Positions 60,119 through 64,000 of a DNA stretch of 64,000 nt are shown in pieces (the first letter of the stretch is position 1; each line of letters begins with the position of its first letter). A program made the position numbers and the translations under genes. Under the pieces are notes generated by a model. The model was not told the origin of the DNA, did no database searches, and saw only the letters and a list, made by a program, of their open reading frames with translations. The DNA lies in contig JAQYVX010000001.1 of the NCBI GenBank assembly GCA_030145305.1, positions 62,001 to 126,000 of the forward strand. Reading direction: 5' to 3'. This DNA comes from Halarcobacter sp. (GTDB lineage: Bacteria; Campylobacterota; Campylobacteria; Campylobacterales; Arcobacteraceae).

Positions 60119-60220
60119 CTATTTTTTCATTCTTTTTTCTATTCTTTTTGAAGTTTTATTTATAGTTTTTAAAGTTATTGCTGCAGTTAAAACTGAGGCT
60201 AGAGGTAGTAAAAATGCCAT
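60119..60220 (-). CDS. 33-aa basic membrane-associated small protein
   Basis: An ATG with AAAAGGA six bases before it opens a 33-codon frame. A hydrophobic start (MAFLLPLASVLTAAITL) is followed by a very basic tail (KTINKTSKRIEKRMKK). It could be one membrane anchor with a nucleic acid- or lipid-binding tail. A Fur-box-like palindrome lies 60 bases upstream, and the metal-ATPase operon ends just before it. Confidence 0.5.
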   Translation of the reverse strand: MAFLLPLASVLTAAITLKTINKTSKRIEKRMKK

Positions 60221-60312: not shown

Positions 60313-60346
60313 TTAAAAAAAAAGGAAGTCTTTAAAGACTTCCTTT
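60313..60346 (-). terminator. terminator of the metal-ATPase operon
   Basis: AAAGGAAGTC and GACTTCCTTT pair around TTTAAA. On the minus strand a run of nine T follows. It closes the operon 30 bases after its last gene. Confidence 0.85.
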
Positions 60347-60375: not shown

Positions 60376-60597
60376 CTAAGATTCTTTTACTTCTATAAGC
60401 TCTTTTGTTTTTTTCTTCTTTGGATCATATAACATTGTATGCCAAAGACTAAAGGCACAAAATGCAACACCAGCAACAACATGGGCTTTTTTAGCAGTTT
60501 TATTTTTCATAAACATAGAAGTTGCAACCGTAACACCTAAAGTTGCGGTCATGCCTACTTTGGCAGCTTCTCTTTGTAATTCTTTATCAAATTTCAT
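60376..60597 (-). CDS. 73-aa hypothetical membrane protein of the metal-ATPase operon
   Basis: I do not recognise this protein. It has an amphipathic start (KFDKELQREAAKVGM), one or two hydrophobic helices (TATLGVTVATSMFM; AHVVAGVAFCAFSLWHTML) with glycine and alanine spacing, and a lysine-rich end. It lies two bases after the P-type ATPase gene and is the last gene of the operon. A role as accessory or structural membrane protein of the same system is likely from position only. Confidence 0.65.
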   Translation of the reverse strand: MKFDKELQREAAKVGMTATLGVTVATSMFMKNKTAKKAHVVAGVAFCAFSLWHTMLYDPKKKKTKELIEVKES

Positions 60598-60599
60598 AC

Positions 60600-62702
60600 T
60601 TATACCTTTACCCCTTTTATAGAATTAAGCAGTAAGCCAATTGTAGTTCCATTGTGTAGCATAGCTGTTACTACAGGAGAAAATAATCCAAATGTTGCAC
60701 CTGCTAAAATAGCTGAATTGATTCCAACGGTTGCATTAAAGTTGTTGTTAATTAACTTCATTGTTTTATTTGCTAACTCTTTTGCTTCAACAACAGCAAA
60801 AATATCATCTTTTAATAAACTAACATCAGCAGTAGCTTTTGCAATATCAGCTCCTCTACTCATAGATATTCCAACATGTGCAGAAATCAAGGCAGGAGCA
60901 TCATTAATACCATCTCCTACAAAAGCTACTTTTTTACCTTCATCCATAAGCTCTTTTACAATTTTTGCTTTTTGAGTTGGTAAAAGTTCAGCTCTAATTT
61001 CATCAATATCAAGCTCTTTTGCAATTTGTTCTGCTTTTTCTTTTGTATCACCTGTTAGCATTACAATATTTTTAACACCTAATTCTCTTAATCTTTTTAT
61101 TGATTCTTTAGAATTTTCTCTTAGGTTATCAGATAAAGCAATTGTTCCTAAAAGTTTTCCATCAAAACTTATATAAAGAAGAGTTTTCCCACTTTCTAAA
61201 CATTTTTCTATCTTTTTTTTGTGTTTTGAGAAGTCAATTTTTTCATCATCTTCTAAAAAATGTCTGCTTCCTATAATCACTAATTTATTATCAACTTCAG
61301 TTTTAACCCCATGAGCGACGATAAACTCAACTTCTTCATGATGCATATGAATAAAGCCTTTTTCTTTTGCCGCTTTTACAACAGCTTCTGCAACAGGATG
61401 AAAATAATGCTCTTCAGCAGAAGCGGTAAGATTTAATAAATCATCACTAGTCCACTCATCATCAAAGGATTCCACCGAAATAACTTCCAATTCACCTTGG
61501 GTTAGAGTTCCAGTTTTATCAAAAACAAAAGTATCAGCACTAGCTAAAGCTTCTATTGATTTTGCGCCTTTTATCATAATACCATTATGTCCAGCTTTAG
61601 AAATTGTTGCTTTAAAAGCAACAGGAGTTGCAAGTTTTAAAGCACAAGAATAATCAGCTTGCAAAATAGAAGCTGTTCTTTCAAAATCTCTTGTTAAAAT
61701 ATAAGATGTTCCAGCAAGCCCTAAAGTTACAGGCACAAGCTTATCTGCAAGTTTAGTAGCTTTTAATTGTACTGAGGACTTTTCATTTAAAGAGCTTTCA
61801 ATATAGTGTTTTATTCTTTGAGTAGCCGTATCAGCACCTACATATTCAGCCCAAATTCTTAATCTTCCATCTTCTATAATTGTTCCAGAAATAACTCTAT
61901 CACCTCTTATTTTCATAATTGGTTCAGCTTCTCCTGTCATAGAAACTTGATTTACACTTGCATTTCCATCAATAATATGTCCATCTACAGGAATTGTATT
62001 TCCAACCCCTACTACGACAATATCACCAATTTTTATATCTTTACTTTTTATAAGTATCTCAGTGGTTTTACCTTCAATTTCTCTTTCAACCCAAGCTTCT
62101 TCTACATTTGGTTTTGAAAGTTCTTTTAATAAATCATCACTTTTATGAACAGTTGTCTCTTCAATATACTCACCAAGTTCTAACATAGCACTTGTAGAAT
62201 TTGCAGCTAAATAATCTTTTCTATAAATAGAAATTCCCACTGCTGCACTTTCTAAAACTCTAGAAGTCAAACCCTCTTTAAAAAGCTCTTTAACACCATC
62301 TAATAAAATAGGATGTGAAGCTCCTGCTGTTACTGAGAATTTTAAGAAATCATTTGGCATAAATCTTTCTGCAATCAAAGCTGAACTTGCAATTGCTGTT
62401 CGTCGAAAGCTTGGATTTTCACTACTTACACAAGAAACACAAGCTGTTTCTTTACTCTTTGTTAATAAAACTTCAGGAGTCAAAGAAGATAATTTATTTT
62501 CGATTTTGGCACATACGGAAGAATCTTCAAAATTAAAAACAATACTGTTTGCTTTTTTATTTATTCTTACGCTAGTAACTCCTGCAAGACTTTCTAATTC
62601 TGTTTTTAAAAGATTTTCATCTAAAAAATTTTCTTTTAAAAAGGAAGATTTATATCTAGCTCTTTTTGTAGTACCATGTACTTTTTGAAACTGATTAACC
62701 AT
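60600..62702 (-). CDS. P1B-type metal ATPase with SCA motif (FezB-like candidate)
   Basis: This is a 700-residue metal-transporting P-type ATPase. The N-terminus holds an HMA-like ferredoxin fold (about 25-75) without the CxxC, followed by a separate CVSC (about 88-91). The core has TGEAEP, DKTGTLT (phosphorylated Asp about 396), HYFHPVAEAV (HP motif) and VAFVGDGINDAPAL. In the metal-binding membrane helix the usual CPC is replaced by YSCALKLATP (about 350). Non-CPC motifs define separate P1B groups. My recollection is that group P1B-6, to which the ferrosome ATPase FezB belongs, has such a motif. The small glycine-rich membrane proteins around it support an iron or other metal storage function. 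Confidence 0.85.
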   Translation of the reverse strand: MVNQFQKVHGTTKRARYKSSFLKENFLDENLLKTELESLAGVTSVRINKKANSIVFNFEDSSVCAKIENKLSSLTPEVLLTKSKETACVSCVSSENPSFRRTAIASSALIAERFMPNDFLKFSVTAGASHPILLDGVKELFKEGLTSRVLESAAVGISIYRKDYLAANSTSAMLELGEYIEETTVHKSDDLLKELSKPNVEEAWVEREIEGKTTEILIKSKDIKIGDIVVVGVGNTIPVDGHIIDGNASVNQVSMTGEAEPIMKIRGDRVISGTIIEDGRLRIWAEYVGADTATQRIKHYIESSLNEKSSVQLKATKLADKLVPVTLGLAGTSYILTRDFERTASILQADYSCALKLATPVAFKATISKAGHNGIMIKGAKSIEALASADTFVFDKTGTLTQGELEVISVESFDDEWTSDDLLNLTASAEEHYFHPVAEAVVKAAKEKGFIHMHHEEVEFIVAHGVKTEVDNKLVIIGSRHFLEDDEKIDFSKHKKKIEKCLESGKTLLYISFDGKLLGTIALSDNLRENSKESIKRLRELGVKNIVMLTGDTKEKAEQIAKELDIDEIRAELLPTQKAKIVKELMDEGKKVAFVGDGINDAPALISAHVGISMSRGADIAKATADVSLLKDDIFAVVEAKELANKTMKLINNNFNATVGINSAILAGATFGLFSPVVTAMLHNGTTIGLLLNSIKGVKV

Positions 62703-62705
62703 TGT

Positions 62706-63062
62706 TTACTCCGCAGAAGCTTCCATTTGTGCTTTTGCATCTTCATATCGTTCTTTCATCTCTTCCATTCCAGCTTGGAAAAGTTCATTCCCTTTTGAGG
62801 CAGCTTTCATAATAGATTCTTGCGCACCTTTATTTGTTAAAAGAAAAGTAACAGCAGCACCTATTAAAGCACCTTTTACAAAGTCTGCATTACTAAAAGT
62901 ATTTTGTGTTTGAGAAGATACATTATTAGTCATTGGATTTTGGTTCATTGTTTGATTTATATATGGATTTTGATTTATTCCCATATCTTGCAGATGAGAA
63001 TTGTGTGCTCTTGTAGAATTAATATCTGTATTATATCTATTTTGATTGTTTCTATTATTCAT
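62706..63062 (-). CDS. YtxH-like small membrane protein, Asn-rich N-terminus
   Basis: This is a 118-residue protein. The first 60 residues are Asn/Gln-rich and disordered (NNRNNQNRYNTDIN). A glycine-containing hydrophobic segment follows (FVKGALIGAAVTFLLTNKGA), in the pattern of the YtxH family, then a charged helix (AGMEEMKERYEDAKAQMEAS). It lies three bases before the ATPase gene and overlaps the previous stop by one base. It could coat or shape a membrane compartment; the enzyme motifs are nil. Confidence 0.72.
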   Translation of the reverse strand: MNNRNNQNRYNTDINSTRAHNSHLQDMGINQNPYINQTMNQNPMTNNVSSQTQNTFSNADFVKGALIGAAVTFLLTNKGAQESIMKAASKGNELFQAGMEEMKERYEDAKAQMEASAE

Positions 63063-63424
63063 TATTTACCTTCTTCAATTTCTATATTATTATTTTCAAG
63101 AGCAAGCTCTTTTTCTTCTAATTTATCATTTATAACTTCAATTGCATAAATACCAGCCATTCCAACAGAAAGTGCTGTTAAGGCTTTAAAAAGTCCACCT
63201 TTTTGTCCAACATAGTTTGCAGTTGCAATTGCAGATCCTGTTGCAATTGCACCTTGAGAGGCAATTTTCACAGTATCTCTAGTAGCTTCTTTTGAAGTAA
63301 TTTTATTTTCTTTTACTTTTTTATAATTTATTGAACCTGAAACAATTGCCGAGGCAACTGCTCCACTTACGATATGTCCTAAAACATTTCTAGGTTCTCC
63401 TGTATTTATTAAGACTTCTTTCAT
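63062..63424 (-). CDS. MamC-like small membrane protein
   Basis: This is a 120-residue protein with two hydrophobic segments joined by a short helix. From about residue 16 the order is VSGAVASAIVSGSINYKKVK, ENKITSKEATRDTVKIASQG, AIATGSAIATANYVG and LSVGMAGIYAIEV, then a Glu-rich tail. This follows the magnetosome protein MamC, as I remember it, nearly position by position: membrane segment, KEKRIT-EA-DT-K loop, Ala/Gly-rich helix, then a segment ending in an acidic E-L region. MamC's loop binds iron minerals. The similarity supports an iron-storage or vesicle role but needs a profile search. Confidence 0.65.
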   Translation of the reverse strand: MKEVLINTGEPRNVLGHIVSGAVASAIVSGSINYKKVKENKITSKEATRDTVKIASQGAIATGSAIATANYVGQKGGLFKALTALSVGMAGIYAIEVINDKLEEKELALENNNIEIEEGK

Positions 63425-63753
63425 TCTTTTTCCTCTTCAATTTTTGTCTTCCTAGCTCTTTTAACTGGTGTTTTTTTTGTTTCTTTTACTATTTTTGTTT
63501 CAAGTTTTTTTTCTGCTTGTGTTTTCTCTTCTAAAGCAGCTTGTTCTTTTTTCTCTTTAATACATAAAGCTGTTGCATTTATTGTTTGTTTTACATCATC
63601 AACAGTCTCTTTTGATTTTTCAAGTGAATTATTTGCAAGATCTTTTGATTTATCAAAAAGTGAACATGCTTTCTTTTTAATTTTGTCTGATTTATTAAAT
63701 GCAACTATAGCTCCTGCTCCAACTGCTAATCCTAATATAAATGGTAATGCCAT
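63421..63753 (-). CDS. YtxH-like protein with basic C-terminus
   Basis: This is a 110-residue protein with an N-terminal glycine-zipper-like membrane segment (LPFILGLAVGAGAIVAF). A helical linker with two cysteines follows, then a long lysine/glutamate-rich tail ending with TPVKRARKTKIEEEKE. The build is that of a small anchored coat protein. It overlaps the MamC-like gene by four bases (ATGA). Confidence 0.7.
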   Translation of the reverse strand: MALPFILGLAVGAGAIVAFNKSDKIKKKACSLFDKSKDLANNSLEKSKETVDDVKQTINATALCIKEKKEQAALEEKTQAEKKLETKIVKETKKTPVKRARKTKIEEEKE

Positions 63754-63756
63754 GAT

Positions 63757-64000
63757 TTATTCCTTTTCTTTCTTATCTTTGTTGTCCATATAATTATTTA
63801 AAAATGCAATTGAAGCTCCACCAAAAGCAACTCCACTAATCATAGAAATATTTAGTTTTGAGAAAAGTTCAGTTAACTTACTTTGATCTAAATTTCCAGA
63901 CATAGCATCTTCAAATAAACTTTGATACTCACCCAATTTTTGCATAAGTTCTTCTTGATTAAAGCCCTTAGTATTTAAGTCTGAAGAACTCGTATAATGA
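63757..64000 (-). CDS. small membrane protein at right edge (start outside or at 63945)
   Basis: The frame is open from the edge to the stop at 63757, about 81 residues. An internal ATG at 63945 would give 62. The visible part has a helical N-terminus (SLFEDAMSGNLDQSKLTELF), one glycine-rich membrane segment (ISMISGVAFGGASIAFLNNY) and a charged tail. Only a weak GAAGAA precedes the internal ATG, so the gene may begin beyond the window. It belongs to the metal-ATPase operon by spacing (three bases). Confidence 0.6.
   Translation of the reverse strand, partial: HYTSSSDLNTKGFNQEELMQKLGEYQSLFEDAMSGNLDQSKLTELFSKLNISMISGVAFGGASIAFLNNYMDNKDKKEKE

Follow-up and report, generated by a model that had tools for sequence, protein, structure and literature searches.

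A probable ferrosome-type (fez) gene cluster with a ferritin-like membrane protein and a distant MamC relative in an Arcobacter relative

Why should one heavy-metal pump be encoded together with so many very small membrane proteins? The question is raised by the right-hand end of a 64,000-nucleotide stretch of Halarcobacter sp. DNA (contig JAQYVX010000001.1, positions 62,001 to 126,000 of the forward strand; hereafter the window), which holds part of a compact minus-strand operon. A preliminary description made from the letters alone had seen there six genes, a P1B ATPase with an SCA membrane motif and four or five small proteins, and had read them as a candidate ferrosome-like operon. The analysis reported here comes to a similar view: the operon is very probably a fez-type (ferrosome) cluster of an Arcobacter relative, building iron-storage membrane compartments. 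The ferrosome-like reading is supported by the assignment of the ATPase to subgroup P1B-6, by FezC-type histidines in a small membrane protein, and by gene families and gene order like those of a Rhodopseudomonas cluster.

The tight packing is as described earlier, with gaps of 2, 3 and 3 bases and overlaps of 1 and 4 between the open reading frames (ORFs) listed for the window. The count of six genes with four or five small proteins stands only in part: the sixth, a 62-residue ORF at 63757-63945, was rejected as a gene of its own, being the C-terminal end of a 230-residue ferritin-like protein (FLP). The operon does enter from outside the window, as had been supposed, since the remainder of the FLP gene, an HMA2 protein and a Fur-family gene were found past the right edge. 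Read from 5' to 3', the order is HMA2, FLP, CC, MamC-like, YtxH-like, P1B ATPase and FezC-like, preceded by the Fur-family gene and supplemented by a 33-residue membrane microprotein (Table 1). Membrane segments of the small proteins and the FLP are from a hydropathy count with a skipping algorithm, and the ATPase counts are from a corrected one.

NCBIfam places the window ATPase among heavy-metal P1B ATPases, and the SCA motif claimed for it is indeed seen in transmembrane segment 4 (TM4; ADYSCALKLATP). SCA is the TM4 motif of the P1B-6 subgroup. A conserved HN motif in TM6 is given as a P1B-6 feature (PMC9374683), and it is found in 118 of 119 cluster ATPases. In a maximum-likelihood tree of 34 rows, which contained no experimentally proven FezB, the window ATPase belongs to a fully supported (100/100) clade made up of 20 cluster ATPases, that of Rhodopseudomonas among them. 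Outside this clade lie E. coli CopA, E. coli ZntA, the other P1B ATPase of the same genome and a CtpC-like ATPase, a label that I assigned to an ATPase with a DUF1490 gene just before it; a CopA-, ZntA- or CtpC-like identity is rejected by the tree. Whether the pump falls within the P1B-6 branch had been set beforehand as a test of the ferrosome proposal, and the HN motif and the position in the tree, beside the Rhodopseudomonas cluster ATPase, identify it by sequence as a P1B-6 enzyme. Its structure model (mean predicted local distance difference test score, pLDDT, 79; predicted TM-score 0.67; 70-73 for the other four models) displays a P1B fold with an HMA-type domain at the N terminus, and a copper P1B ATPase is its best structural match (E=9e-36). 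Two further observations concern these pumps. The membrane helices of the cluster ATPases are unusually polar: 20 of these proteins have a median of 1 segment (19 residues, hydropathy at least 1.6), and 14 other P1B ATPases have a median of 3.5. Some Arcobacter relatives also encode, just upstream of the cluster, another P1B ATPase whose motif is of the SCPC type; the three of these that were placed in the tree (L052, L059 and L061) form a long branch of their own and are without the HN motif.

A P1B pump accompanied by small transmembrane or coiled proteins, with HN in TM6, is also what the mycobacterial PacL1-CtpC platform offers (PMC9374683), and the operon could be a plain metal-efflux platform of that sort, the small proteins scaffolding the pump in the plasma membrane and Fe(II) being exported without any organelle. 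The 110-residue CC protein does have a PacL-like layout, an N-terminal membrane segment followed by a charged tail rich in Glu, Lys and Ala, and genes for DUF6110 proteins, which are similarly built, typically accompany those for P1B-6 ATPases (PMC9374683). However, the scanned CC and YtxH-like proteins gave no DUF1490 or DUF6110 match, and their Pfam scan yielded sub-threshold matches only. TM4 of the window ATPase carries SCA, in contrast to the CPC of the mycobacterial pump, and the CtpC-like ATPase stands outside the clade. Moreover, the accessible text of PMC9374683 mentions no ferritin-like or FezC-type protein, and such proteins would suit storage better than export. Efflux from a plasma-membrane platform is therefore an improbable account of the operon.

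A further comparison is with Rhodopseudomonas. From the gene number of RPA2333 and the gene total, this gene of R. palustris CGA009 would be expected at about 0.482 of the genome; in a complete Rhodopseudomonas relative the position of the cluster ATPase is 0.484 of the chromosome length (2,549,416 of 5,269,926). CGA009 makes ferrosomes from six fez genes, RPA2333-2338 (PMC12016538), and rpa2333-2338 change together with iron genes (PMC6879726). In Rhodopseudomonas sp. BR0M22 six consecutive genes belong to the families of the window operon, and their ATPase has no second of its kind in that genome, four other matches being at most 36% identical and starting at residue 157 or later. HMA_2 matches across 16 Rhodopseudomonas genomes comprise four of this type, a divergent one (G115) and a marginal one (G123, E=0.0046). 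The Rhodopseudomonas cluster and the operon of the window share six families: HMA2, CC, MamC-like, YtxH-like and P1B-6 ATPase occur in one order, and the sixth is FezC. They differ in three respects. The window cluster has the FLP inserted after HMA2; its FezC is a separate protein of 73 residues at the 3' end, whereas Rhodopseudomonas has an HMA2-FezC fusion at the 5' end; and it has the microprotein, which was sought in Campylobacterales and one Arcobacter plasmid and not in Rhodopseudomonas. A literature search, whose coverage did not extend to Grant 2022 and Pi 2023, returned no description of a ferrosome-type cluster with a ferritin-like protein or a MamC relative.

The gene set is conserved well beyond the window. 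Among 100 related genomes, the present one included, the ATPase is found in 45 (E<=1e-100) and the FLP in 46 (E<=0.001), and 43 of the 45 sampled ATPase-bearing genomes have the FLP, the contig of G035 holding only its end. Reduced five-gene clusters occur in G073 and G090 (L184, L185), where no FLP was found and the ATPase match, which lacks the HMA2 part, begins near residue 98. Within the stretches fetched, all 38 Campylobacterales loci (the window's own included; L067-L069, which have no cluster and match the FLP weakly, left out) hold the ATPase, YtxH-like, MamC-like and CC genes, 37 hold HMA2, 37 the FLP and 31 the FezC-like gene, so the arrangement is not due to chance. A wider scan with the N-terminal half of the ATPase gave 452 relatives among 482 pattern matches, of which the best 80 were kept. 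Of these, 68 proteobacterial loci are at least 12 kilobases long; counting either strand, the ATPase, YtxH-like and CC genes are present in all 68, HMA2 in 67, MamC-like in 64, FezC-type in 59, the FLP in 28 and feoB in 22. The FLP is found in clusters of Azotobacter, Thauera and Aromatoleum as well, and 114 of 116 stand-alone HMA2 proteins share an H-x(3-5)-R-x-R motif. In the plasmid collection, the closest named copy is that of Arcobacter sp. AZ-2023 (ATPase identity 73.6%). Plasmid-borne clusters adjoin iron-uptake genes on an Arcobacter plasmid (L080) and on a conjugative plasmid of Cereibacter (L083). In L080, where the annotation splits the ATPase into two frames, Tn3 transposase and integrase genes flank the cluster, one on each side, which suggests horizontal spread.

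Ferrosome FezC is a DUF4405-like haem b cytochrome that has been modelled as a homodimer (PMC10979944). The 73-residue protein matches DUF4405 below the cut-off (E=0.0017). Two histidines, H39 and H53, 14 residues apart, are invariant in all 31 aligned members of its family (32 in total), and the same spacing is seen in all 63 aligned proteobacterial HMA2-FezC proteins. These FezC-type histidines mark the protein as FezC-like and a candidate haem b cytochrome, the family having been compared with the DUF4405 model and the HMA2-FezC fusions. As in the DUF4405 cytochromes (PMC10979944), a short membrane protein with invariant histidines adjoins a ferrosome-type ATPase; the window protein differs in having no HMA2 domain, and its haem binding is a prediction. 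Azotobacter and Thauera (L147, L148, L158, L164) have an HMA2-FezC gene some kilobases past the cluster, encoded on the other strand. At two loci the FezC-like reading frame continues, as a fusion, into a SpoIIAA-like domain (L056:9569-10246, Pfam E=2e-20; L063:9805-10470, 1e-21), and the FezC-like frames of L058 and L059 are of similar length.

The FLP itself matches DUF2202 (PF09968) with 19.7 bits, under the gathering cut-off of 22, and rubrerythrin also weakly. Four plasmid proteins that carry the DUF2202 annotation (H43-H46) share 44-50% identity with it over 121-136 residues, and 11 non-Arcobacter records match it in all, at 36-50% identity. Among 38 members, comprising 37 Campylobacterales loci and the plasmid L080 (L067, L068, L069 and L083 excluded), the metal ligands are almost fully kept: E35 in 37, E62 in 37, H65 in 37, E106 in 38 and H140 in 37. 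A model of the Thauera orthologue is a confident four-helix bundle (pLDDT block means at least 90 over residues 11-150) with an uncertain C-terminal region; Foldseek ranks MJ0754 first (E=2e-4), and the VIA Z scores are 16.9 for the top-scoring bacterioferritin and 16.0 for MJ0754. In the FLP of the window genome a hydrophobic segment spans residues 199-217. Sequence and model thus describe a four-helix ferritin-like domain with di-metal-type ligands and a predicted C-terminal membrane segment. Fold and ligand type are shared with ferritin, bacterioferritin, rubrerythrin, MJ0754 and DUF2202 proteins; what distinguishes the FLP is its junction to a membrane segment and its place inside a fez-type cluster.

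For this one step a different function is conceivable that would be compatible with the ferrosome reading as a whole, the domain being a rubrerythrin-like scavenger of peroxide or O2 that guards an Fe(II) store and not a ferroxidase. The L057 orthologue passes the Rubrerythrin cut-off (25.9 bits against 22.8), and one stand-alone DUF2202 relative adjoins genes for a catalase and a DNA starvation/stationary phase protection protein. Another stand-alone DUF2202 protein, however, is encoded directly before feoB and a P-type ATPase on a Methylotuvimicrobium plasmid (L187:2726-5800), and no rubredoxin-like domain was found in the three FLPs scanned. A scavenging role is possible, although I hold it to be somewhat doubtful.

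One small protein had been said to resemble MamC, and here the resemblance turns out to be real distant homology. The best NCBIfam match of the 120-residue protein is MamC (NF038051; E=6.4e-7, 29.6 bits), far under the curated cut-off of 100 bits, and the top MamC score among the 100 relatives, 36.8 bits, is also under it. Exactly one MamC match is found in each of 30 of these relatives; all 26 that were checked lie in this operon, the other 4 being in places that were not fetched, whereas the model matches none of 14 control genomes. Alignment of the family to Magnetospirillum SS-4 MamC with hhalign gives E=4e-7 and a probability of 93%. The SS-4 protein is a bona fide MamC (142 bits to the MamC model), and against the hidden Markov model of the family it scores 31.3 bits, compared with 15.0 for the best of 5000 shuffles. 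Chance as the source of the match is rejected by the shuffle control, the control genomes and the operon-specific placing. Both proteins have two membrane helices and a charged loop, with 33% identity over 87 aligned columns, although the aligned proteobacterial members have a shorter loop. In MamC, loop residues Glu66 and Asp70 are tied to magnetite nucleation (PMC6584501). They align with an E and a D of the window protein (numbering matched through the D-x-G context), but just 9 of 21 Campylobacterales members have acidic residues at both sites. Against the link to MamC, the model did not reach E 0.001 with the fez MamC-like proteins of six Magnetospirillum genomes and, at E 0.01, picked up no more than 12 of the 32 members of a mixed alignment; the link therefore rests on the Campylobacterales branch. 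The sequence relationship is one of distant homology and not of membership in MamC.

Iron recurs in the surroundings of the cluster. A Fur-family gene is present in 25 of the 38 Campylobacterales loci and feoA/feoB in 13 (within the stretch fetched). Plasmid copies have as neighbours TonB receptors and ChaN (Arcobacter), iron ABC genes (Azospirillum), or FeoA and a siderophore-type receptor (Cereibacter). Upstream of the window operon, beyond the Fur-family gene, lie genes for a MetA-type outer-membrane protein, LTXXQ, DUF4198 and NikL-like proteins, then feoB and feoA, these two identified by reading and from the way in which they group with other FeoA/FeoB proteins. Fur/iron regulation of ferrosome genes is reported for C. 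difficile (PMC12574912). The preliminary description had named small proteins matching only YtxH families, with no tie to metal, as an outcome contrary to its proposal; what was found is a set linked to iron by its HMA2, DUF4405/FezC-like, ferritin-like and MamC-relative proteins and, at many loci, by nearby fur-family or feo genes. A general YtxH stress operon was likewise rejected, the gene set being specific and iron-linked. The compartment might be real and yet store or detoxify another metal such as Zn, Co or Ni, the substrate of P1B-6 ATPases being "not definitively defined" according to PMC6884021. However, P1B-6 is listed as Fe(II) in the review PMC7558416, and it is fur-family genes, feoAB, siderophore-type receptors and iron ABC genes that recur as neighbours, which makes a cargo other than iron very improbable.

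Several observations weigh against a fez-type, iron-storing cluster. The open wording of PMC6884021 on the P1B-6 substrate is one. That the BR0M22-type cluster corresponds to RPA2333-2338 is something I infer, and the cluster type is found in just 4 of 16 Rhodopseudomonas genomes, plus the divergent form in G115. The FLP is not a constant companion: 2 of the 45 ATPase-bearing relatives carry a reduced cluster without it, and it is absent from many proteobacterial clusters, its presence being confined to those 28 of the 68 loci. Its ligands are partly lost in 27 proteobacterial members (L112 frames excluded), where E35 is kept in 23, E62 in 16, H65 in 17, E106 in 21 and H140 in 20. One ordinary ferritin gene is also present in the window genome, so the operon is not the sole iron store. 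Finally, a Fur-box scan gave no clear signal, with p<=0.05 in 6 of 37 upstream regions and p<=0.01 in 1.

The features of the region are collected in Table 1. A pattern search covering 36 Campylobacterales stretches and the Arcobacter plasmid L080 found the microprotein in 20 of 37 ATPase-bearing loci: between the ATPase and FezC-like genes in 17, after FezC in 2 (the window and L038) and fused to the FezC-like protein in 1 (L080). In the window it is positioned after a terminator-like hairpin. By consensus matching, terminator-type sites in the region number 2 against 1.8 expected, and a promoter scan returned 36 sites against 33.3 in shuffles, no excess.

Table 1. Coordinates of the operon and associated features (window positions, or locus name and position where a locus is given)
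Feature	Position	Strand	Basis or remark
Membrane microprotein, 33 residues, MAFLLPLASVLTAAITLKTINKTSKRIEKRMKK	60119..60220	-	pattern search; missing from the gene list of the preliminary description
Terminator-like hairpin at operon end	60321..60346	-	11-pair stem, 4-base loop, T tail; consensus match only
FezC-like (DUF4405-type) membrane protein, 73 residues, candidate haem b cytochrome	60376..60597	-	DUF4405 E=0.0017 and invariant His
P1B-6 ATPase (FezB-like), 700 residues; N-terminal HMA2-type domain, SCA in TM4, HN in TM6	60600..62702	-	
YtxH-like protein, 118 residues; one weak membrane segment and charged helix	62706..63062	-	
MamC-like protein, 120 residues; two membrane segments and charged loop	63062..63424	-	NCBIfam, hhalign, shuffle control
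CC110, 110 residues; N-terminal membrane segment and Lys/Glu/Ala-rich tail	63421..63753	-	
FLP (230 residues), C-terminal part	63757..64000, open at right edge	-	
FLP, full gene	L007:7758-8450	-	TTG start; extends 449 bases past window edge
HMA2 protein, 105 residues, upstream of FLP	L007:8453-8770	same as FLP	
Fur-family gene upstream of HMA2	L007:8880-9329	same as FLP	
Second P1B ATPase	L052:3365-5551, L056:3083-5236, L058:3457-5610, L059:3240-5393, L060:3813-6005, L061:3607-5760, L063:3330-5483		

A working scheme for the putative ferrosome can be drawn from these parts. The P1B-6 ATPase would pump Fe(II) into small membrane compartments, iron being the predicted cargo. The Gly/Ala-rich small proteins (CC, MamC-like, YtxH-like and the microprotein) may shape or coat the membrane, the role of each being conjectural, and HMA2 domains with their H-x(3-5)-R-x-R motif may dock or hand over metal. 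The likeliest role of the membrane-tethered ferritin-like di-metal domain would be to oxidise or nucleate iron at the compartment. The FezC-like candidate haem b cytochrome, presumably formed by dimers, would carry electrons across the compartment membrane and reverse the oxidation on demand; the side of the membrane to which each domain is assigned is likewise putative. An extension, which I advance tentatively and rate at a little less than an even chance, is that the organelle is a hybrid: a ferrosome with a tethered ferritin-type ferroxidase and a haem cytochrome, oxidising iron to store it and reducing it for release, and with a MamC-like protein that shares ancestry with the crystal-shaping protein of magnetosomes.

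Ferrosomes were discovered only recently, and few of their parts are known. If the hybrid reading is true, ferrosomes and magnetosomes draw on one protein family. A conserved variety of this kind, shared by Arcobacter relatives and genetically tractable nitrogen-fixing bacteria like Azotobacter, would connect the chemistry of ferritin with a membrane organelle; it would also provide a candidate enzyme for iron loading and one for release, together with a sequence link between ferrosomes and magnetosomes that could be tested by single deletions.

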